Virus record (IMG/VR): IMGVR_UViG_3300026455_000021 | Location: 1 to 44,340 of that record | Origin: a virus | Direction: 5' to 3' (one strand) | DNA length: 44,340 nt | Shown here: positions 14,281-36,306 of the stretch, piece after piece | Layout: each line of letters opens with the position of its first letter | Numbering within the stretch: the stretch's first letter is position 1 | Translations under genes and position numbers: made by a program | Notes under the pieces: generated by a model | What the model was told of the DNA's origin: nothing | Databases searched by the model: none | The model's input: only the letters and a program-made list of their open reading frames with translations

Positions 14281-15429
14281 ATGAAAACATCTGATATTCA
14301 AAATACAATAAAAAAACTGTCAGTAATACAGTTCGAAACAGCATTAAATCCCAACGACCCGCAAGGCGATTACGCAGCCAAAAAACAGGCACTAGACGAT
14401 CTAGCAGCAGATCCTGTTGCCAGCAGTGATCCCACAATAGCCAAAGCTATAGAACAGAGAAAAGCAGAACTAGATAAAGAAGCTGCTAGCAAAGGCGTGA
14501 CCAGTCAGGACGCAGACGAAGGGTTTTCTATAGGTGACGAGTTTGGTATCAGTTTTAGTGAAGATCTAGAAATTGGCACACATATCGTAGGATTTGCCGA
14601 AGATGGTATCGTAGTAGAATTAGATGATCAAGCCATACAGATGTTAGAAACACAGGGAGTGAGATTCCTTGAAGGCGAACTAGTTGAAGGTCTTAAAGAT
14701 CCTAAAGACAATCCGTGCTGGAAAGGCTACCACCCCGTAGGCACCAAAAAGAAGAACGGCAAGACTGTACCTAACTGTGTGCCTGAAGCTGCTAATCCAG
14801 CACAACAAGCTGCGATTGCTATAGCCAAGAAGAAAGCAGGCAAGACTGAAGATTACAATCCCGAGTATGATGATGAAGCCGGAATGGCCGACAACAATCT
14901 AGAAACACTAAGACGTGCTGTAGACGGTTTAGACGATCTTATACAGACAGGCGATAACTTGCCTGAATGGTGCCAGGAAAAGATCGCTGTAGCTAAAAAT
15001 ATGCTAGTAGCAGTGTGGGATTATATGGAATCAGAAGAAGCCACACATCAAGAAACAGAAGCCATGAACATGCCATTTGCTGGCGCTGCTGTTGGGCATA
15101 AAGAAGGTCCAGCCGGTCAACTGAAAGGCCGCATGAAGCGTCCGGCTAGCGCAGGAGATCTAGTAGGCGGTGAGAGCATCGAGAATGAAGCCAAGTATCA
15201 TGGCAAGGAAGTTCCGCTAGGTAAAAAACTTCCCGGTGATGTTAAAAAATCTAAAGTCTATGTACGCGATCCAAAGACCGGCAACATTAAAAAAGTAAAC
15301 TTTGGTGATAAGAAAATGCGTATTAAGAAATCAAATCCTGCTCGTCGTAAGTCATTTAGAGCAAGACATAATTGCGCTAATCCAGGACCACGCACTAAAG
15401 CTCGTTACTGGTCATGTAGGAGCTGGTAA
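14281..15429 (+). CDS. Probable capsid-internal/core protein with conserved basic C-terminus
   Basis: 382 residues, acidic overall in the first two thirds. It contains NPCWKGYHPVGTKKKNGKTV with PNCVPE, a signature frequent in marine T4-like phage proteins, and ends in a very basic part with RARHNCANPGPRTKARYWSC, resembling DUF5872-type tails. The N-terminus MKTSDIQNTI fits the D/E-L/I pattern at positions 5-6 shared by its neighbours. A prohead-core or packaged-protein role is inference. Its stop overlaps the next ATG by one base. Confidence 0.65.
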   Translation: MKTSDIQNTIKKLSVIQFETALNPNDPQGDYAAKKQALDDLAADPVASSDPTIAKAIEQRKAELDKEAASKGVTSQDADEGFSIGDEFGISFSEDLEIGTHIVGFAEDGIVVELDDQAIQMLETQGVRFLEGELVEGLKDPKDNPCWKGYHPVGTKKKNGKTVPNCVPEAANPAQQAAIAIAKKKAGKTEDYNPEYDDEAGMADNNLETLRRAVDGLDDLIQTGDNLPEWCQEKIAVAKNMLVAVWDYMESEEATHQETEAMNMPFAGAAVGHKEGPAGQLKGRMKRPASAGDLVGGESIENEAKYHGKEVPLGKKLPGDVKKSKVYVRDPKTGNIKKVNFGDKKMRIKKSNPARRKSFRARHNCANPGPRTKARYWSCRSW

Positions 15430-15770
15430 TGAGATTACAAGAGCTTTTTGCATCTCTTGAGAAAGAACAAGATCATAGACTAGATCCTGAAATAAACTAT
15501 CTAGCTGATCTTAAATTTTTCATCGACAACGATAATGATATCTTGTCTAAATTTTTCTTTCCTGCTATAAAACAACATAAAGACACTGCGTCACCAGACG
15601 ACTATCATCACTATGTTGAACCCATTAAAAAGACCATAGTGATTTATTGTAAGAAACATGATCTCGATGATGTCAAAGATGACATATTCGGTGAAGATGA
15701 TATTCTAGAACTAGCTAAGAGAATGGCTCAAGAACAACATAGATATATAGACCGAGGCGATTACGAATAA
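15429..15770 (+). CDS. Small protein with capsid-targeting-like N-terminus
   Basis: 113 residues beginning MRLQELFASLEKE. The rest is acidic and helical (YLADLKFFIDNDNDILSKFF; DDIFGEDDILELAKRMAQE). No family recognised. The N-terminal pattern M-[RK]-x-x-[EQD]-L-F is shared with the next genes, and one-base overlaps on both sides tie it into the same unit. Confidence 0.6.
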   Translation: MRLQELFASLEKEQDHRLDPEINYLADLKFFIDNDNDILSKFFFPAIKQHKDTASPDDYHHYVEPIKKTIVIYCKKHDLDDVKDDIFGEDDILELAKRMAQEQHRYIDRGDYE

Positions 15771-16861
15771 TGAGACTAAAGCAGTTATGGGAAGATTCGG
15801 GAGATTCTATAGCATTCTGTTTTGGTAGAATGAATCCTCCCACGCGAGGGCATAAAGCTGTGTTTGATACACTAGCAAAAACCAACAAGAACTATAGAAT
15901 ATTCATTAGCCCCGCACAAAAACCCTTAAAAAATAATCCATTAGACTTTGATACAAAAATCAAATTTATCAGAGTGATGTTTCCAGAACATGCCGCACAT
16001 GTTTCAGCAGATCCTGGCCTAAACACTATCATGGCTATCGCTGCTAAACTGTACGATGAAGGTTACAGGAAAATCACATTCGTAGGTGGCAGTGATAGAG
16101 TTGGCACATTCAAAGAGCTACTAGACAAATATAATGGGGTAGAAATGCCCAACGGCATGTACAACTTTGAAGAAATAAATGTTGTTACTAGCGGAGACAG
16201 AGATCCCGATGACGAGGGACTAGCAGGAATTAGTGCTAGTGGCGCACGTGATGCTGCTAGAGCAGGAGATGTAGAAGCATTCACTGAAATAACAGGTGCA
16301 GGCAAGTATGCCAAGCAATTATATGATGCTGTACGTTCGGGATTAAAAATCAAAGAAGAAGTTAATGAAGGTCCATTAGAACTTAACACTAAAGATCCTG
16401 TTGTAGTTATATCTGATCCTAAGACAGGAAAGATACTAGATAAAATGAATCTGTCTGCCGCTGCTATAAAATATAGATTAGGTCCGCCAGAGAATGTCAA
16501 GCAACAATTAGCACATCAAAACTACACTACCATAGGAAACTATGTAGTACAGGCACCAATGACAGGACAAGCCGCAGAGGCAATATTAGTAAATGATCCA
16601 GAGAAAGGTGCTCAGATCCGTCCAGACGGTGGTATGGGAACTTGGGATGAAAAATCTCTAGTATCTAACCTAAGCCGTAAATTTGAATCTATACAAGAGT
16701 TTCTCAAATACGGTAACTACGAAAATATCGAATACGTATTATACAAAGCAGGTGCTATGGAATCTATGATAACAGCGTTAGCACAATACAATAGATTCAA
16801 ACAGAAACAAGGCAAACGCCCCATAGGCAGAGGCCGAGAAATAGATATGGGGAAATACTGA
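15770..16861 (+). CDS. Cytidylyltransferase-like (NMNAT-fold) protein with C-terminal extension
   Basis: 363 residues. After MRLKQLWE comes a nucleotidylyltransferase domain (about 12-190): FCFGRMNPPTRGHKAVF contains the (H/T)xGH motif at TRGH (25-28), followed by TFVGGSDRVGTFKELLDKY and an ISASGARDAA segment in place of ISSTxxR. Such enzymes join NMN, pantetheine phosphate or similar to ATP; the substrate is unknown here. Residues 190-363 are a separate region of unknown function ending in a basic tail. LWE at 6-8 fits the T4 prohead-protease site ([LI]xE). Confidence 0.7.
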   Translation: MRLKQLWEDSGDSIAFCFGRMNPPTRGHKAVFDTLAKTNKNYRIFISPAQKPLKNNPLDFDTKIKFIRVMFPEHAAHVSADPGLNTIMAIAAKLYDEGYRKITFVGGSDRVGTFKELLDKYNGVEMPNGMYNFEEINVVTSGDRDPDDEGLAGISASGARDAARAGDVEAFTEITGAGKYAKQLYDAVRSGLKIKEEVNEGPLELNTKDPVVVISDPKTGKILDKMNLSAAAIKYRLGPPENVKQQLAHQNYTTIGNYVVQAPMTGQAAEAILVNDPEKGAQIRPDGGMGTWDEKSLVSNLSRKFESIQEFLKYGNYENIEYVLYKAGAMESMITALAQYNRFKQKQGKRPIGRGREIDMGKY

Positions 16862-17046
16862 TGCGTCTACGTGACTTATTTGAAAACGACTTACCTAAAA
16901 AGAGAGATCCTAATTGGAAAACTCTACAGGCCAAGCGTACTAGTGGTGCTGCTGGTGTTCATCGCGATAAGAAAAAAGAACAGAAGCAAGGCTACGAAAA
17001 ACATAAAAGTAAATCTACAGAAGAATCTCAAGATGGAACTCAGTGA
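16861..17046 (+). CDS. Small basic protein with capsid-targeting-like N-terminus
   Basis: 61 residues: MRLRDLFENDLPKKRDPNW followed by a Lys/Arg-rich, probably disordered part. LFE at residues 6-8 would be a prohead-protease site, leaving a small basic internal protein. The start overlaps the previous stop by one base, and its 3' end overlaps the next gene by 14 bases in another frame. No family recognised. Confidence 0.6.
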   Translation: MRLRDLFENDLPKKRDPNWKTLQAKRTSGAAGVHRDKKKEQKQGYEKHKSKSTEESQDGTQ

Positions 17047-17236
17047 ATTAAAACGCCTAGCAGGCATAACAGAATTTAAGGGCTATCAGCCATACGGCGG
17101 TAGCAATATAAGTATTACTGGCAATGAAAAAGGCGAACTGATGAAAAAACACAATATCAAACCAGGAACACCTGAATGGTTCCAGTTATGGTTTAGCAAG
17201 CCTTATCTAACCGGTGAAAAACCTGTAGGAAAATAA
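17033..17236 (+). CDS. Small protein (67 aa) with ELKRLAGI-type N-terminus
   Basis: 67 residues beginning MELSELKRLAGITEF. This ELSELKRLAGI start recurs in short marine T4-like phage proteins. ITE (12-14) fits an [LI]xE processing site. The remainder has GYQPYGGSNISITGNEKGEL and GTPEWFQLWFSKPYL. I place the start at the ATG inside the end of the previous gene because the frame upstream has no resemblance to a protein with this family's N-terminus. Confidence 0.6.
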   Translation: MELSELKRLAGITEFKGYQPYGGSNISITGNEKGELMKKHNIKPGTPEWFQLWFSKPYLTGEKPVGK

Positions 17237-17237
17237 A

Positions 17238-17582
17238 ATGCGTTGGAAAGAAATAACAGAAGGTTTGAAAAAAGAAAATACCACAGTACATGGCGCTAAA
17301 ACCTTTCCTGCGATCAAAGGATGGACTTATGATATGTATAGATGGGGTGTGGCTGCAGCTGGTAGCCCAGATCCACTACATGACATGGCTAAAGAAAGCG
17401 ATATCGCTAATAATCTAGTAGCTGTACAATTCAGTGATGGCGATAGAGAAATCATAGACCACAGCGCAAAAAGAATTGGTTTGAAAACACAAAAAATAGG
17501 TCCCGACAAAAGAAAAGAAAGCGAACACATCAACAATGCTAGTCCTGTAGCTAATGTAAAAAGAAATCGTTTCGGAGTTTAA
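17238..17582 (+). CDS. Conserved marine T4-like phage protein
   Basis: 114 residues beginning [13 protein letters not shown], with ITE at 6-8 as a possible [LI]xE cleavage site. The central part [19 protein letters not shown] and the end with [17 protein letters not shown] are family features I associate with proteins of unknown function found across marine T4-like phages. One base separates it from the previous stop, and the IscA-like gene follows one base after. Confidence 0.6.
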
Positions 17583-17583
17583 C

Positions 17584-17907
17584 ATGGTAGAAATCACTCC
17601 AGCAGCAAAAGTCAAAATACAAGATTTACTTTCAGAAGAAAATAATGAAAATCTAAAACTTCGTACCTTTGTACAAGGTGGAGGATGTAGTGGGTTTAGT
17701 TATGGGTTTACTTTTGATGATGTAAAAAACGATGATGATTTTTCTATAGATATCGGACGTTGGCAAGTGCTTATCGATTCTATGAGCATGATGTATCTAG
17801 AAGGTGCCAGCATAGATTACAAAGAAGATATCATGGGCAGTCAATTTGTTATCAGCAATCCTAATGCGCAAAGCACATGTGGTTGCGGGAGCAGTTTTTC
17901 AGTATGA
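17584..17907 (+). CDS. A-type iron-sulfur carrier (IscA/ErpA/HesB family)
   Basis: 107 residues of the A-type carrier family, which deliver Fe-S clusters to apo-proteins. It has [13 protein letters not shown] at the start, [13 protein letters not shown] with the first Cys, [17 protein letters not shown], and [11 protein letters not shown] with the paired CGC at the C-terminus; all three ligand Cys are present. HesB/IscA-like genes occur in several marine T4-like phages. It does not share the capsid-targeting-like start of its neighbours. It could serve the two radical SAM enzymes in this window. Confidence 0.88.
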
Positions 17908-17940
17908 ACGAGTATCCAGTATATCCAGAGGATGATGGTT

Positions 17941-18042
17941 ATGACCGTCCGAGAAACCCTTATAGCCCTGTTTAAAGACATACTAGAAGGAATTATTAGA
18001 TTTGGTTGTGGCCTAGCAGGAATAATTTATGAGAGCAAGTGA
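17941..18042 (+). CDS. Putative 33-residue amphipathic peptide
   Basis: A short frame MTVRETLIALFKDILEG then IIRFGCGLAGIIYESK fills the gap between the IscA-like gene and the nucleotidase gene and overlaps the latter by 14 bases. GATGG precedes the ATG, a weak ribosome site. A competing 23-residue frame starts at 17904. Either could be chance; the hydrophobic pattern suggests membrane association. Confidence 0.35.
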   Translation: MTVRETLIALFKDILEGIIRFGCGLAGIIYESK

Positions 18043-19123
18043 ATTAAAATTACCGCAGGGAATGGAAGTCTATGTTGACATGGACGGTGTCCTCGCAGAT
18101 TTTTTCTCAGAATATGCCAAACTAGCCGGTATCGAATCAGGCAACTACAGAGACATTCCTCCAGCTAAAGCAGATCCAACGTTAAACAAGATGATAGGCA
18201 CTGACTTCTTTTATAGATTGCCTAAGTTTCCTACCGCTGACAAACTACTAGATATCGTTGTCGATGCTGCTGGCAGCTATAATATCTGTTCAAGCCCTCT
18301 CAGAGGCGATCACGAAAATTCCGGTGTACAAAAAAGACGCTGGATAGAAAAACATCTAGCAGTAAAACCTAAAAATATTTTTATAGTAGCTAACAAAGCC
18401 AAGTACGCAGTCAATGCCAATGGCATGCCTAATGTCTTAATAGATGATAGAGGTAGCAACATTTCATCCTGGGAAGCAGCAGGCGGTATAGGTATCAAAT
18501 ATCAAGCTGACGAAGATACACTTAAAAAAGTATTAGATGGGTTGAAACGTGCCCGTCGTGTTGGTCAAGGAGAAGAGCCTCACGAACCACAACAGCTAAT
18601 CAGCAAAGATAGAGGCGGCAGCAATGCTATCGCTACTGCCAAAGACGAAAGTATCGAAGAATCAAGAAGATCTGGGTTTTATTCTGTACACAAGTTCTTA
18701 ACAAAATACAATAGATTCGACCCTATAGGCAGTCCTACTAAGTTTTCCGGAAGTGCTGTCGGCAAGACTTTGGACTATCTCAAACAGACTAACATGCCAG
18801 TAAAGGTAACTATCAATGATCATAAAGGTGAATTTGATAGTGTGATTATCGAACCGGGCGATCACGTAAAACGTGCTGTCGAAAGACTGGGTTTCATAGA
18901 TGACAGTCCGGATGTAGCATTAGACGTTAAAGAAGTTAGCAAGCAAGGTGTGGCGGAAAACTTTGCTGATGGCAAAGGACCAGGTCGCCCAGGTGATAGC
19001 CAACGCCATGGAATACCTAAAAAAGCCACTATGGCTGAATTAGAAAAAGCCTCACACGCTAAAGGACGTAAAGGACAGCTAGCCCGTTGGCAAATAAATA
19101 TGAGACGGGGTAGAAAGAAATGA
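18029..19123 (+). CDS. 5'(3')-deoxyribonucleotidase-like HAD protein with conserved basic C-terminus
   Basis: 364 residues. The HAD phosphatase domain (about 12-185) has VYVDMDGVLADFF with D17 and D19 as nucleophile and acid, SSPLRGDHENSGVQKRRWIE, and FIVANKAKYAV then NVLIDDRG, as in NT5C-type 5' nucleotidases that dephosphorylate dNMPs. Residues 210-300 form a separate domain. The last ~50 residues (GRPGDSQRHGIPKKATMAEL, then LARWQINMRRGRKK) are a basic module I know at the C-termini of other marine T4-like phage proteins. The start MRASEL fits the local N-terminal pattern. Confidence 0.75.
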   Translation: MRASELKLPQGMEVYVDMDGVLADFFSEYAKLAGIESGNYRDIPPAKADPTLNKMIGTDFFYRLPKFPTADKLLDIVVDAAGSYNICSSPLRGDHENSGVQKRRWIEKHLAVKPKNIFIVANKAKYAVNANGMPNVLIDDRGSNISSWEAAGGIGIKYQADEDTLKKVLDGLKRARRVGQGEEPHEPQQLISKDRGGSNAIATAKDESIEESRRSGFYSVHKFLTKYNRFDPIGSPTKFSGSAVGKTLDYLKQTNMPVKVTINDHKGEFDSVIIEPGDHVKRAVERLGFIDDSPDVALDVKEVSKQGVAENFADGKGPGRPGDSQRHGIPKKATMAELEKASHAKGRKGQLARWQINMRRGRKK

Positions 19124-19305
19124 GATTTGGCGAGCTAGTAAATGATTATAGATATTATGGAGCTAGGATCAAGGTAAAACTTAATGGATCTACTTCTTAC
19201 ATTGATACAGCAGTTAACGCTAAAAACAGAGAAATGGCTAGGAGATTGTTTAAAGTAATGTACGGGCCCAGCTCTATGGTAACTAATGTACGAGAAATCA
19301 AATGA
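19120..19305 (+). CDS. Small conserved phage protein
   Basis: 61 residues beginning MRFGELVND, again E5-L6. The remainder (IKVKLNGSTSYID; NREMARRLFKVMYGPSS) is a compact beta-alpha module that I associate with short conserved proteins of marine T4-like phages. Function unknown. Four-base overlaps on both sides. Confidence 0.6.
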   Translation: MRFGELVNDYRYYGARIKVKLNGSTSYIDTAVNAKNREMARRLFKVMYGPSSMVTNVREIK

Positions 19306-19493
19306 AATTAGCAGAACTACTAGCAAAACCATCAAAAATCAAGGAATCTGCTACAGCAGGTGCTACTAGCGCAGGAAATATAGCGTCTGTAGCCAACCCT
19401 AACATAGCTAGATCTAAGAAAAAAGTAAAAACAGCTAATGCCCTTGATACCAAGGACGTAAGCATATTCGGCGGTCCGGCTTTCAAAAGATAA
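19302..19493 (+). CDS. Small protein with ATSAGNIAS motif
   Basis: 63 residues: MKLAELLAKPSKIKES, then GATSAGNIASVANPN, a Lys-rich part and SIFGGPAFKR. The (A/T)SAGNIAS module is one I recognise from short proteins of marine T4-like phages. IKE at 13-15 matches the [LI]xE processing consensus. Function unknown; packaging in the capsid is inference from the N-terminus. Confidence 0.6.
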   Translation: MKLAELLAKPSKIKESATAGATSAGNIASVANPNIARSKKKVKTANALDTKDVSIFGGPAFKR

Positions 19494-19496
19494 ATA
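19489..19496 (+). promoter_or_regulatory. Candidate late promoter (GATAAATA)
   Basis: GATAAATA overlaps the stop codon of the preceding gene and lies 59 bases before the ATG of the 411-residue gene, which has its own ribosome site AAGGAAA. The 62-base gap holds nothing else. Confidence 0.4.
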
Positions 19497-19555
19497 TACG
19501 TATGAAAAGAAAGCTCATGGAGCCAACAAGTTAATGAAGACCCAAGGAAAATAAC

Positions 19556-20791
19556 ATGGATTTTAAAGCACTCATCCAAAAAATAGACAGTATTGATATT
19601 CCAGCGACGCCTGTAGCAGCACCAAAGCTAGCTGATCCCGTCGTACTAGAAGAAAGCATGGCTATCAAGGTTCTAGCAGGAGTTACTCCGCTAACAGAAT
19701 CAATTCTAGCTGAAAAGAAAGCCAAGCCCGATTTCCTAGATATGGATAAAGATGGCAACAAGAAAGAGCCAATGAAAAAGGCAGCTAAAGACGCTAAGGT
19801 CAAAGAAGCTTCCGAACACAAAGACAAGGATTCATTTGATAAGAGTGCTAAACCAGGTGATACTGTCAAAACTTCTAAGGGCACATTGACCAAGACCAAG
19901 ACTGGTGTCAAGCATGAGCGCAAATATACAGAAGGTATGGAAAGCACAGCAGAAATGGCTCATCACCATGCTTCAGAATATGCCAAGCATCACAAAGCAG
20001 GAAACCTAGAGATGTGTATGCATCACAAAGAATCCTGTGAAAAATGCGGTGGTAAGATTTCACACGGTGAAATGGGTGAATGCTACCATCAACACGCAGG
20101 CATGAACCAAGGTCAACCATACAATGTACAAGAAGGTGTTATCGGCGCAGGAGTAGGCGCTGGCCTAGGAGCTCTAGTCGGTGGACCAGTTGGTGCTGTC
20201 GTAGGTGGCGGTTTGGGTCAAGCTGTAACCAATTCTATGACCAACGAAACTAAAAAGTGTACCTGTGAAACTGTAGGCAAGACCAAATGCTCAGTACATG
20301 GTTCGATGAAAGAAGCTTCTACAGGAGATTATTCTGCCAAGAAAGCTCGCGCTGGTAAAGACATTGGTAAGCCAGGTAAGAACTTTTCTAAGATTGCTAA
20401 GTCAGCAGGTGGTGGAGAAAAAGGCAAGAAGATTGCCGGCGCTGTGTTAAAGAAACAACGTGCCAACGAAGCTGCCAAACCAGATTATATCGATCTAGAC
20501 AAAGATGGTAACAAGAAAGAGCCAATGAAGAAGGCAGCTAAGGATGCTAAAACCAAGAAGCCTATGAAAGAATCAGTAGAAACAAAACTGACCTTTGTCA
20601 ATGCTCTTGCTATCGTTAAAGAAAGCAATTACACAAAACAGATCGATCCTAAAGATGAAGCACTGTGGGATTGGGCTCAACGTGTAGCAAAAAACAAATT
20701 CACTGAATCAGCAAAAGCAGATGCGTTTGCCGCTATGACCTATGAAAGAATGGGCGGTGATTGGGACGTCTGCGATACTATTACAGAATAA
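19556..20791 (+). CDS. Probable internal virion protein with duplicated EF-hand-like loops
   Basis: 411 residues, Lys-rich. A 25-residue unit is duplicated at 57-81 and 308-332 with the core LDxDKDGNKKEPMKKAAKDA; its DxDxDG resembles an EF-hand or dockerin calcium loop. Residues 133-180 are His/Cys-rich (C154, C161, C164, C176 and many His), and a second Cys group is at 235-245. Residues 195-225 are a glycine zipper (GAGVGAGLGALVGGPVG), a possible membrane-inserting segment. LEE, LTE and LAE at 31-53 fit [LI]xE. A packaged protein acting during DNA entry is inference. Confidence 0.6.
   Translation: MDFKALIQKIDSIDIPATPVAAPKLADPVVLEESMAIKVLAGVTPLTESILAEKKAKPDFLDMDKDGNKKEPMKKAAKDAKVKEASEHKDKDSFDKSAKPGDTVKTSKGTLTKTKTGVKHERKYTEGMESTAEMAHHHASEYAKHHKAGNLEMCMHHKESCEKCGGKISHGEMGECYHQHAGMNQGQPYNVQEGVIGAGVGAGLGALVGGPVGAVVGGGLGQAVTNSMTNETKKCTCETVGKTKCSVHGSMKEASTGDYSAKKARAGKDIGKPGKNFSKIAKSAGGGEKGKKIAGAVLKKQRANEAAKPDYIDLDKDGNKKEPMKKAAKDAKTKKPMKESVETKLTFVNALAIVKESNYTKQIDPKDEALWDWAQRVAKNKFTESAKADAFAAMTYERMGGDWDVCDTITE
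19724..19798 (+). repeat. EF-hand-like protein repeat, copy 1
   Basis: Codes for residues 57-81 of the 411-residue protein, with D62, D64 and D66 before G67. Copy 2 is at 20477-20551 and differs at only a few residues, suggesting internal duplication. Confidence 0.65.
20477..20551 (+). repeat. EF-hand-like protein repeat, copy 2
   Basis: Codes for residues 308-332 of the same protein. The 17 residues following the first Asp pair (KDGNKKEPMKKAAKDAK) are identical to copy 1. Confidence 0.65.
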
Positions 20792-30680: not shown

Positions 30681-31079
30681 ATGTTAAAGTTTAAAACAAT
30701 AGAAGATATAACTTCTACTAAAGAAGAATATGATCGATTATACAATATGGATCATATTTTTGTAATTAGAAGCAAGAAACCCGATGACAACGATTTAACT
30801 AAAGCACTGTCGATATTCGAAAGAGACAACTTTGACTGGACTTCAACCCTCAGAGGTCCGTACAAAGGTCAACCAAAAATCACAAACGAATTAAATTATC
30901 AAGATTATGCTCACGGTTACGTGTTTGAAGTTAGTGATGATAAGTTAATTAATTTCGAAAGAAAAGCATTCATGCTTATTATGACAACAGATTTTATCGT
31001 TGAAAAATTAGATATAGTAAGATCTAAAAAAGAAGCATCAGACGAAATGTTTTACTCCCTATTTGAGGAACAAGAATAA
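30681..31079 (+). CDS. Conserved phage protein of unknown function
   Basis: 132 residues with charged, mixed alpha/beta sequence (FKTIEDITSTKEEYDRLYNM; KALSIFERDNFDWTSTLRGP; DKLINFERKAFMLIMTTDFI). No family recognised. A CGGAG ribosome site precedes the ATG, and its stop overlaps the folE ATG by one base, implying co-translation with folE. Confidence 0.6.
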   Translation: MLKFKTIEDITSTKEEYDRLYNMDHIFVIRSKKPDDNDLTKALSIFERDNFDWTSTLRGPYKGQPKITNELNYQDYAHGYVFEVSDDKLINFERKAFMLIMTTDFIVEKLDIVRSKKEASDEMFYSLFEEQE

Positions 31080-31915
31080 TGACAAAAGAATTTACACCAG
31101 ATCCTGTTATTAACGCAGAACTCAATAGAGAATTTATTAAGCAAGAATACGAACCTTTAGGTAAACCTGTGTTCATCAAGAAAGAAACAGGGTTAGATGC
31201 TATGAACGGCGACGGCGGATATGAACTAGCTAAACTAAGTGATCATTTACGTTTTAAAATGAAACGTGAAAACAAAAGATTCTGGGCCGGCGATAACATT
31301 AGCGATTTCCTAAGCGACGGTGATAAAGAAAAACTTATCGACGAAGCAACTCTAGCATTTGAAAAAGTCTTAGATGTCTTGTTGATCGATCGCGAAAACG
31401 ATCCCAATAGTAAAGGCACAGCTCGTCGCCTTGCTAAGATGTACTTTAACGAAATAATGGCAGGAAGATATGACCCAGCACCAGACGCAACAGCATTTCC
31501 CAATGATTCGCAGGACCGTTACGAAGGTATGCTTGTTGTTCGCAGTGAGCTTCGCAGTATGTGTAGCCATCATCATCAACCCGTTACTGGCGTTGCTTAT
31601 ATTGGCATTATTGCCGCCGAGAAACTTATCGGACTCAGCAAGTACACACGTATCGCACAATGGTGTGCCCGTCGAGGTACTCTCCAGGAGGAACTGGCTA
31701 ATGATATTGCTCGGGAGATCGAACGTGCCACAGGCGCCAAAGACCTAGGCGTTTATATTCAAGCCACTCATGGTTGCTGTGAGAATCGTGGCATCATGGC
31801 ACACTCTAGTCTAACACAGACTACTGTACTAAAGGGTGCGTTTAAAGATGATCCGGGTACAAAGAAAGAGTTTATGGACAATATTAAACTTCAACAAGAG
31901 TTCGCTCCACGATAA
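31079..31915 (+). CDS. folE: GTP cyclohydrolase I (FolE)
   Basis: 278 residues against about 220 in E. coli; the extra length is an N-terminal extension of 60-80 residues. The catalytic part has ARRLAKMYFNEIMAGRY, then VRSELRSMCSHHHQPVTGVA with Zn ligands C162 and H165, KLIGLSKYTRIAQWCARRGT, and HGCCENRGIM with C233 as third ligand. The usual CEHH reads CSHH here. It converts GTP to dihydroneopterin triphosphate, the first step to 7-deazaguanine (and folate). It follows the 132-residue gene with a one-base overlap. Confidence 0.9.
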   Translation: MTKEFTPDPVINAELNREFIKQEYEPLGKPVFIKKETGLDAMNGDGGYELAKLSDHLRFKMKRENKRFWAGDNISDFLSDGDKEKLIDEATLAFEKVLDVLLIDRENDPNSKGTARRLAKMYFNEIMAGRYDPAPDATAFPNDSQDRYEGMLVVRSELRSMCSHHHQPVTGVAYIGIIAAEKLIGLSKYTRIAQWCARRGTLQEELANDIAREIERATGAKDLGVYIQATHGCCENRGIMAHSSLTQTTVLKGAFKDDPGTKKEFMDNIKLQQEFAPR

Positions 31916-35457: not shown

Positions 35458-36306
35458 ATGAGCAAAATCAAGATAGCAGAACTATTTTATTCAATTCAAG
35501 GCGAAGGACGCTATATGGGTGTACCTTCGGTCTTCTTGCGTACTTTTGGTTGTAACTTTAAGTGCGCAGGCTTTGGTATGCCTAAAGGAGAACTCAGCAA
35601 TGAAGCAGATAATATTGACCCATCTCTTTACACCGAGTACAAATCGCTTCCTTTGGTGTCTACAGGTTGTGATAGTTACGCTAGTTGGGATCCTCGCTTT
35701 AAGCATCTTTCTCCCGTTTTGGATACTGATGCGATTGCCGATGCTATTGTGGATACGTTACCTTACAAAGAATGGCGCGACGAACATCTCGTGATTACAG
35801 GCGGTGAGCCGTTGCTAGGTTGGCAACGTGCTTACCCAGACTTGCTACGTCATCCTAAGATGGCAGGTCTCAAGGAAATCACTTTTGAAACAAATGGCAC
35901 TCAGCCGCTAACTGAAGAATTCGCAGAGTATTTGTTAGAATGGTTGATGCCTCATCCAGAATATCACAAAGAAATCACATTCAGTGTCAGTGCTAAACTA
36001 AGTTGCTCTGGTGAAGCAAGACATGAAGCTATTCGGCCAGATGTAGTTTGTAACTACGAAACTCTAGGATATACATATCTTAAATTTGTTGTGGCTACAG
36101 AAGAAGACGCAGAAGAAGCTATCGAAACAGTAGACCTTTACAGAGCAGAAGGATTTACAGGACCGGTGTATTTGATGCCTGTAGGCGGTGTAGAAAGTGT
36201 TTATACATTGAATAATCGCCGTGTAGCAGAGCTAGCAATGAAGAACGGTTTACGTTATAGCGACAGATTACAAGTGCCGTTATTTAAAAATGAATGGGGT
36301 ACATAA
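35458..36306 (+). CDS. queE: 7-carboxy-7-deazaguanine synthase (QueE), phage subtype
   Basis: 282 residues, radical SAM. IAELFYSIQGEGRYMGVPSV is the QueE N-terminal motif; FLRTFGCNFKC gives C32 and C36, and the third cluster ligand appears as C71 in STGCDSYASWD, after a 34-residue insertion. HLVITGGEPLLGWQ is the SAM-binding motif. It makes CDG, the precursor of preQ0, from carboxy-tetrahydropterin. A long Cys spacing of this type is seen in phage QueE. No QueC is visible in this window. Confidence 0.85.
   Translation: MSKIKIAELFYSIQGEGRYMGVPSVFLRTFGCNFKCAGFGMPKGELSNEADNIDPSLYTEYKSLPLVSTGCDSYASWDPRFKHLSPVLDTDAIADAIVDTLPYKEWRDEHLVITGGEPLLGWQRAYPDLLRHPKMAGLKEITFETNGTQPLTEEFAEYLLEWLMPHPEYHKEITFSVSAKLSCSGEARHEAIRPDVVCNYETLGYTYLKFVVATEEDAEEAIETVDLYRAEGFTGPVYLMPVGGVESVYTLNNRRVAELAMKNGLRYSDRLQVPLFKNEWGT

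Follow-up and report, generated by a model that had tools for sequence, protein, structure and literature searches.

The stretch of viral DNA analysed for this report (44,340 nucleotides, here called the window) comes from a giant (jumbo) T4-like myophage of bacteria, the same phage that is represented by the 238-kb contig G001 and by the records L001-L006. The genes of the window run in one direction with little space between them. Eleven genes, all on the plus strand, occupy positions 14281-20791, and ten of the eleven encode proteins that begin with the pattern M-[KRDE]-x-x-[EDQA]-[LI], which the original prediction had likened to the capsid-targeting sequence of T4 internal proteins. The set opens with a 382-aa protein (14281-15429; leader MKTSDI) that carries the motif CWKGYHPVGTKKKNGKTVPNCV, followed by a 113-aa protein (15429-15770; MRLQELFA), a cytidylyltransferase/NMN-adenylyltransferase-like nucleotidyltransferase (15770-16861; MRLKQLWE/D, the slash marking the candidate cut; phrog_3041, E 2e-46), a 61-aa basic protein (16861-17046; MRLRDLFE/N) whose match to DUF7230 lies below the cut-off, a 67-aa protein (17033-17236; MELSELKRLAGITE/F) and a 114-aa protein (17238-17582; MRWKEITE/G). 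An IscA-like protein (17584-17907) interrupts the cluster; it matches phrog_17776, of unknown function, and owes its name to the original prediction, which had rightly noted that it lacks the pattern. Beyond it lie a 5'(3')-deoxyribonucleotidase-like protein (18029-19123; phrog_2643, and PF06941 above its cut-off) with the leader-like start MRASEL and no nearby cleavage site, a second 61-aa basic protein (19120-19305; MRFGEL), a 63-aa basic protein (19302-19493; MKLAELLAKPSKIKE/SATAGATSAGNIASV) in which a copy of the N-terminal arm of the major capsid protein, gp23, follows an [LI]xE site, and a 411-aa protein (19556-20791; MDFKAL) with LEE, LTE and LAE within residues 31-53 and two DxDxDGNKKEP loops, for which a tblastn search found no match in phage records. 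The ATG start of the gene at 17033 is nested in a longer GTG frame (16871) and is kept in related phages, where the product begins M-E-L-S-E-L-K-R-L-A-G-I-T-E-F or in close forms.

All ten N-termini are present at the starts first given for them; LWE, LFE and ITE do fall at residues 6-8 in the proteins at 15770, 16861 and 17238, and [LI]xE triplets occur later in others as had been claimed (ITE at 12-14 in 17033, IKE at 13-15 in 19302 and LEE at 31-33 in 19556). The pattern is borne by 10 of the 11 cluster genes and by 2 of 233 others in G001 (p 4e-15), and the stricter M[KR]xx[ED][LI] by 7 of 11 and 2 of 233 (p 1e-9); both values are post hoc, since the patterns were taken from these same genes, and the comparison genes come from a greedy gene caller that called one ORF wrongly (G001 66253) and overlooked the gene at 19120. 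The cleavage motif taken alone is a weak signal, given that an [LI]xE that starts no earlier than residue 4 and is complete by residue 15 occurs in 5 of the 11 cluster genes and in 34 of the 233 others in G001 (p 0.018), and one complete by residue 10 in 3 of the 11 and 17 of the 233 (p 0.051). A likeness confined to N-termini might reflect a preference in translation initiation, or a DNA element shared by gene starts in an operon, rather than a protein signal, and the tight packing and common direction of the cluster genes would suit such an origin, as would the frequent occurrence of Lys or Arg as the second residue of phage proteins. Leader codons, however, vary from gene to gene (Arg as AGA or CGT; Leu as TTA, CTA, CTT or CTC), so that the resemblance sits at the protein level; the stricter pattern is rare elsewhere in the same phage, and in other phages the orthologues keep these residues though the linkers change. 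The codon and orthologue comparisons largely refute an initiation signal, which we regard as very improbable.

The leader is retained in 31 distinct nucleotidyltransferase orthologues from other phages, with Leu or Ile at residue 3 in all 31, Leu or Ile at residue 6 in 30 and Glu at residue 8 in 30, and the linker behind it varies among them in both length and sequence, as the original prediction would have it for orthologues that differ downstream. The relatives analysed were the best 80 of 89 (79 distinct loci), and in many of the weaker ones the match starts at residue 10-15. A profile was trained on the 31, with L001-L006 deliberately excluded as the same phage, the last Met ahead of the domain taken as the start, and segments of fewer than 10 residues discarded, for which reason the leaderless L051 stands outside the set; the nucleotidyltransferase of phage GAP32 also lacks the leader. 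This profile placed cluster genes at ranks 1-4, 8, 10 and 12 of 244, with the gene at 16861 first and that at 15429 second, and when the nucleotidyltransferase of the window itself was left out the ten remaining cluster genes still stood apart from the 233 others (p 8e-5). For G003, with a generously drawn region, the same test gave only p 0.036. Taken together, the profile and pattern tests identify a short N-terminal tag common to otherwise differing proteins. Among orthologues of the other members, LFE at residues 6-8 is seen in 1 of 9 distinct relatives of the 15429 protein, LAGI[TN]EF in 8 of 9 distinct relatives of the 17033 protein (the more distant L077 lacks it), and the 17238 orthologue in L007 begins MRWKEISE.

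A gp21-type (S77) prohead protease is encoded in the same phage (PF03420, E 5e-26 in G001; phrog_207, E 1.5e-57). Six of the ten leader proteins have an [LI]xE by residue 33, and the remaining four are without a cleavage site positioned for leader removal: the proteins at 14281, 18029 and 19120 have no [LI]xE within their first 100 residues, and the only one in the 15429 protein, LQE at residues 3-5, lies inside the leader. It might be, then, that the leader targets only some members, that these four keep it as a permanent helix for binding the scaffold or a partner, and that the cluster comprises both true cargo, which is cleaved, and core or assembly proteins, which are not injected. Such a mixture would also accord with the high profile rank of the 15429 protein despite its lack of a well-placed site, and with the start MKLYEFF of a small gene that adjoins the portal gene in G001. 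In T4, moreover, targeting depends chiefly on residues 4 and 7 and processing on residues 8 and 10, and an Asp at residue 10 blocks processing but not targeting (PMC9026906). Since the 18029 protein is an obvious enzyme, a pure assembly role is unlikely for that member, and a mixed cluster of this kind seems to us possible but doubtful.

A search of the window for the gp23 Pfam family returned nothing, gp23 being located elsewhere in the phage. Its predicted gp21 site is LSE/SATAGATSAGNVATL (it reads LSE/SATAGATSAGN), to be set beside IKE/SATAGATSAGNIASV in the 19302-19493 protein, and the proposed comparison of the N-termini with cleavage sites elsewhere in the genome thus finds the LxE of gp23 in a sequence context shared with the 19302 protein. 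Among 15 distinct relatives of that protein, an [LI]xE directly precedes the same block in 12 and a Glu stands there in all 15. When the capsid arm of each of eleven genomes was compared with the ORFs of that genome, the best match exceeded all 100 shuffles in seven; the result was marginal for PBECO4 (3 of 100 shuffles as good) and GAP32 (4 of 100) and negative for Melnitz-2 (41 of 100) and S-SRM01 (12 of 100). Arm-mimicking proteins were found in the cyanophages syn9 (gp190), P-SSM4 (PSSM4_163), S-CREM2 (gp160) and S-SM2, and in the last of these MKTLKQFLKE stands immediately ahead of the arm. Arm scores are 45-110 within a phage's own genome versus 17-26 when the jumbo group is compared with the cyanophages. 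We tentatively suggest that the two arms, of gp23 and of the mimic, change together and that an internal head protein of T4-like phages may be a mimic of the phage's own capsid. In this phage that role would fall to the 19302 protein, its cleaved end copying the N-arm of gp23*; once cut by gp21, this small basic protein might expose the copy, dock on the capsid lattice at the site that binds the arm and tether DNA or cargo by its basic tail.

In cyanophages, the orthologous nucleotidyltransferases begin with capsid-targeting leaders like those of T4, and mass spectrometry has detected a cytidylyltransferase in S-SM1 virions (PMC3037559) and the nucleotidyltransferase gp154, among other proteins, in those of S-CREM2 (PMC10665884). 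The leader of gp154 reads MKNFSSFLTE, with the predicted cut directly behind it. The 15770 protein is homologous to gp154 (E 1e-25), the 19556 protein matches the S-CREM2 virion protein gp111 (E 4e-10), and the 14281 protein has a weak match to the virion protein gp160 (E 0.003). A T4-spaced leader occurs in 5 of 28 detected non-structural proteins of S-CREM2, 0 of 24 structural ones and 1 of 167 undetected ones (p 2.4e-4, partly post hoc because the pattern was set after those N-termini had been seen), and 23 of the 28 do not match it. The S-CREM2 authors raise the possibility that such enzymes are contaminants (PMC10665884), and the proteins of the cluster might likewise be intracellular late enzymes whose leader, as a tag for sorting or for binding a partner, directs them to a different compartment or complex. 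It is in line with this that no late promoter was recognised in the window (the T4 form TATAAATA occurs 0 times there versus 4.0 expected, and 8 times in G001). The leaders nevertheless look like those of T4, T4-spaced leaders are over-represented among the detected S-CREM2 proteins, and the same enzyme was independently detected in S-SM1; contamination combined with an intracellular role is, in our judgement, unlikely. Simpler patterns proved too crude for S-CREM2, the jumbo-spacing pattern matching 2 proteins and two looser ones giving p 0.004 and 0.017. S-CREM2 gp12 (annotated as Cas9) contains, at residues 18-26, a tag-like RFASFMAEA that follows a CTG codon; we do not claim it as a start. 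For phage RaK2 its authors report that gp23 ran small and that several other virion proteins were uncleaved; no cluster homologues were found among those of the named uncleaved proteins that were tested.

The head of T4 can carry proteins into the host, its known cargo being limited to Alt and a few internal proteins. We favour, with a probability of about 0.75, the reading that this T4-like jumbo myophage has here a head-cargo island, in which at least half of the ten proteins are head cargo by virtue of the leader. The original interpretation is borne out in part: capsid targeting has good sequence support in a leader conserved apart from the domain behind it, the gp21 protease, the LxE site of gp23 and the T4-like leaders of cyanophages, to which the published virion detections are added; the shorter leader (E8 and not E10) and the four members without a well-placed site fit it less well. 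The shared tag suggests proteins that are loaded alongside the DNA and reach the next host with it, and for this phage we infer recruitment, cleavage and packaging, together with injection and a metabolic role. In its fullest form (M-x-h3-x-x-[LI]6-x-E8) the leader may act like the T4 capsid-targeting sequence and draw otherwise unrelated proteins to the prohead scaffold core, namely a nucleotidyltransferase and a deoxynucleotidase together with several small proteins, often basic; gp21 would cut it off after [LI]xE wherever that site is present, and the mature cargo would remain with the DNA and presumably enter the host on ejection. There the early targets of the enzymes could be nucleotide or NAD pools. 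Such a reading points to cargo islands that include enzymes in jumbo T4-like phages and cyanophages, would account for the cytidylyltransferases detected in virions of cyanophages, which had been suspected of being contaminants, and offers a rule by which packed proteins could be predicted from sequence, as well as a directly testable capsid-arm mimic.

Head-packed proteins cut by a prohead protease are numerous among the ejection proteins of SPN3US and phiKZ-type giant phages (PMC5694885, PMC10052503). Several of their propeptides exceed 100 residues, gp45 alone (20 residues) being T4-like in length, and no shared 8-residue tag is reported for them; the candidate tags of the window end at residues 8-33, and none is a long propeptide of that type. 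Like T4 IPI, IPII, IPIII and Alt, the cluster proteins combine a short N-terminal tag on unrelated proteins with hydrophobic residues three apart and, in some of them, an [LI]xE end, and, as with the T4 internal proteins, many are basic and a gp21-type protease is encoded in the genome. The tag differs from that of T4 in being two residues shorter (h3/h6/E8 here, h4/h7/E10 in T4), and the T4-spaced pattern (hydrophobic residues 4 and 7, processing residues 8 and 10) matches 0 of 244 G001 genes; unlike T4, too, about ten contiguous genes are involved, with recognisable enzymes and some members without a cleavage site. The cyanophage T4-GC190 cytidylyltransferase cluster (S-SM1, syn9, P-SSM4, S-CREM2) has T4-spaced leaders, and most of its neighbouring genes are without recognisable homology to those of the window, but it shares with the window an orthologous nucleotidyltransferase that bears a T4-like leader.

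The 44.3-kb window is a piece of a jumbo T4-like myophage whose DNA polymerase is nearest, within the phage collection, to those of Sinorhizobium phage Phosso (49.7% identity) and then Agrobacterium phage Atu_ph07 (46.1%). Two 60-base stretches with consistent offsets place it from position 47,119 in the 238-kb IMG/VR contig G001, which carries a T4-type head module listed as portal (phrog_213), three small genes, the gp21 head maturation protease, a scaffold-like gene that is probably gp22, judging from its position, and gp23. The C-terminus of the scaffold-like protein (148092-149183), IRKLAGLKV, resembles LKRLAGITE at the start of the window protein encoded at 17033-17236. The T4 late promoter core TATAAATA is absent from both strands of the window, where ~4 copies would be expected by chance, and occurs 8 times in G001. 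GTP cyclohydrolase and QueE-like genes (31079-31915 and 35458-36306 of the window) suggest a possible 7-deazaguanine pathway.

The 11-gene cluster at 14281-20791 is, at a probability of roughly three in four, an island of head cargo in which at least half of the ten leader-bearing proteins use a leader resembling the capsid-targeting sequence (CTS) of T4 internal proteins. The original prediction, which proposed such targeting, is the best explanation available; injection of the proteins into the host is rated as less probable than their packaging. All ten N-termini were found as described, and the pattern derived from these same genes fits 10 of the 11 cluster genes against 2 of the 233 other genes of G001 (p 4e-15); the stricter M[KR]xx[ED][LI] fits 7/11 against 2/233 (p 1e-9). 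Codon choice in the leaders differs from gene to gene, and the likeness is therefore at the protein level. An 8-position profile, built from 31 distinct nucleotidyltransferase N-termini of phages other than the window's own and applied to all 244 called genes of G001, placed cluster genes at ranks 1-4, 8, 10 and 12, the window's own nucleotidyltransferase (15770) being third; with that gene set aside, ten cluster genes, one of them the IscA-like gene and another a mis-called ORF, outscored the 233 others (p 8e-5). The homologous region of the related contig G003, generously bounded, gave p 0.036 (13 against 445 genes). Among the 31 N-termini, [LI]3 is present in all, and [LI]6 and E8 in 30 each, while the residues that follow vary in sequence and length, so that the N-terminus is conserved independently of the downstream domain, as had been anticipated. 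In the related loci L043, L044 and L048, a domain that by eye is like the middle of the 14281 protein stands behind MKTNEFIKE, MKPSEFIKE or MKPQEFIKE. A further tag-like start, MRAHEFITEA, occurs in G001 (236012-236392 and 236394 onward), adjoining a phrog_36119 gene near 236 kb that by eye is like the family of the S-CREM2 virion protein gp156.

T4 gp21 cleaves after L/I-x-E (PMC9026906). The predicted site in gp23 of the window's phage is RKYLSE|SATAGATSAGNVATLNRVILP, identical in G003, and LAE precedes the same block in the related contig G004. The small basic protein of the window (19302) reads MKLAELLAKPSKIKE|SATAGATSAGNIASV, and E immediately precedes this block in 15/15 of its distinct relatives, as part of [LI]xE in 12. 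Of nine distinct orthologues in the 17033 family, eight keep LAGI[TN]EF and one has LAGITNEF; the motif is missing from the more distant L077. Candidate [LI]xE sites occur by residue 33 in 6 of the 10 cluster proteins, the furthest being that of 19556; the sole such site of 15429 is LQE at residues 3-5, and 14281, 18029 and 19120 have none within their first 100 residues. Sites ending by residue 15 are found in 5/11 cluster genes against 34/233 others in G001 (p 0.018), and by residue 10 in 3/11 against 17/233 (p 0.051).

The N-terminal arm of predicted mature gp23 (first 22-31 residues) was aligned to all ORFs of at least 40 aa of the same genome in 11 phages, each represented by the whole or a large part of its genome (860-1,919 ORFs), with 100 shuffles. 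The top non-gp23 ORF bettered every shuffle in seven: G001, G003, G004, S-CREM2, syn9, P-SSM4 and S-SM2. PBECO4 and GAP32 were marginal (3/100 and 4/100 shuffles as good), and Melnitz-2 and S-SRM01 negative (41/100 and 12/100). The S-SM2 protein, MKTLKQFLKE|TPTNSVGNGGYTSAGGQTVAGYD against QPTNAVGNGGYTSSGGQTVAGFD in its own gp23, is a T4-type tag followed without a gap by a copy of the arm; in L044 and L048 the arm block comes after the 14281-like domain. Arm scores track lineage in a seven-by-seven comparison of the phages other than G003, G004, Melnitz-2 and S-SRM01: 44-62 in the jumbo block, 59-98 in the S-CREM2/syn9/P-SSM4 block, and 17-26 when a jumbo phage is compared with a cyanophage, with S-SM2 scoring 110 against itself and 32-45 against those three cyanophages. 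Phages of one lineage being related, the matches are not independent cases. By tblastn, the 19302 protein matched the major head protein in phages of the RaK2 and GAP32 types at residues 13-30 or 15-30 (E 1-2, in itself non-significant). A mimic-bearing protein, S-CREM2 gp160, is in the virion proteome as listed in PMC10665884. That such mimics dock into the shell is a tentative idea that we consider rather unlikely.

That study reports 52 virion proteins, including cytidylyltransferase gp154, SAM hydrolase gp6 and kinase gp14, with 22 of unknown function, and its authors caution about possible contamination. Five begin with tags: gp6 (MKDFDSFLEE), gp13 (MKDLHSFLTE), gp14 (VKRFDAFLTE), gp136 (MQTFSMFFSE) and gp154 (MKNFSSFLTE). 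A T4-spaced pattern, defined after these N-termini were known, fits 5/28 detected non-structural, 0/24 structural and 1/167 undetected proteins of S-CREM2 (p 2.4e-4; p 1.4e-3 without gp154; p 3.2e-3 for all virion proteins against undetected). Two earlier and cruder patterns gave 6/28 against 7/167 (p 0.004) and 7/28 against 14/167 (p 0.017) for the same non-structural comparison. Three cluster proteins resemble S-CREM2 proteins detected by mass spectrometry, namely 15770 (gp154, E 1e-25), 19556 (gp111, E 4e-10) and, weakly, 14281 (gp160, E 0.003); the rest had no match among S-CREM2 proteins at E 0.01. The 19556-20791 protein has two DxDxDGNKKEP stretches (FLDMDKDGNK, YIDLDKDGNK) that look like calcium-binding loops, and gp111 has a segment matching them. 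The 14281-15429 protein carries the motif CWKGYHPVGTKKKNGKTVPNCV and, in its C-terminal part, the motif RKSFRARHNC...KARYWSCRSW; Methylophilales phage Melnitz-2 has similar segments fused to the nucleotidyltransferase. S-CREM2 gp12 (OR473000, 7704-10313, minus strand), annotated as a CRISPR-associated endonuclease and included in the listed proteome (PMC10665884), contains the tag-like segment RFASFMAEA (residues 18-26).

Among the open-access papers surveyed by listing and excerpt, we found no account of the cluster or of the arm mimic. PMC9026906 states that the CTS may serve T4-like phages generally for taking in various proteins, and the principle is thus already known. On jumbo-phage capsid targeting this literature yielded work on SPN3US, and on capsid targeting in cyanophages a T4 review. 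A cytidylyltransferase, T4-GC190, was found in purified S-SM1 virions, according to Sullivan et al. 2010 (PMC3037559). Among eight nucleotidyltransferase records, that of GAP32 has no N-terminal extension. The cyanophage orthologues start with T4-like tags, MKKFSAFLKEA in P-SSM4, MKKFSAFLSEA in syn9, MKNFHQFITEA in S-SRM01, MKSFFQFLSEA in S-SM2 and, behind an extra MA, MRSFLTFLTEA in ACG-2014f, to be compared with MKTYQEFIAEA of the T4 internal proteins IPII and IPIII and MKTFKEFTSTTTPVSTITEA of IPI.
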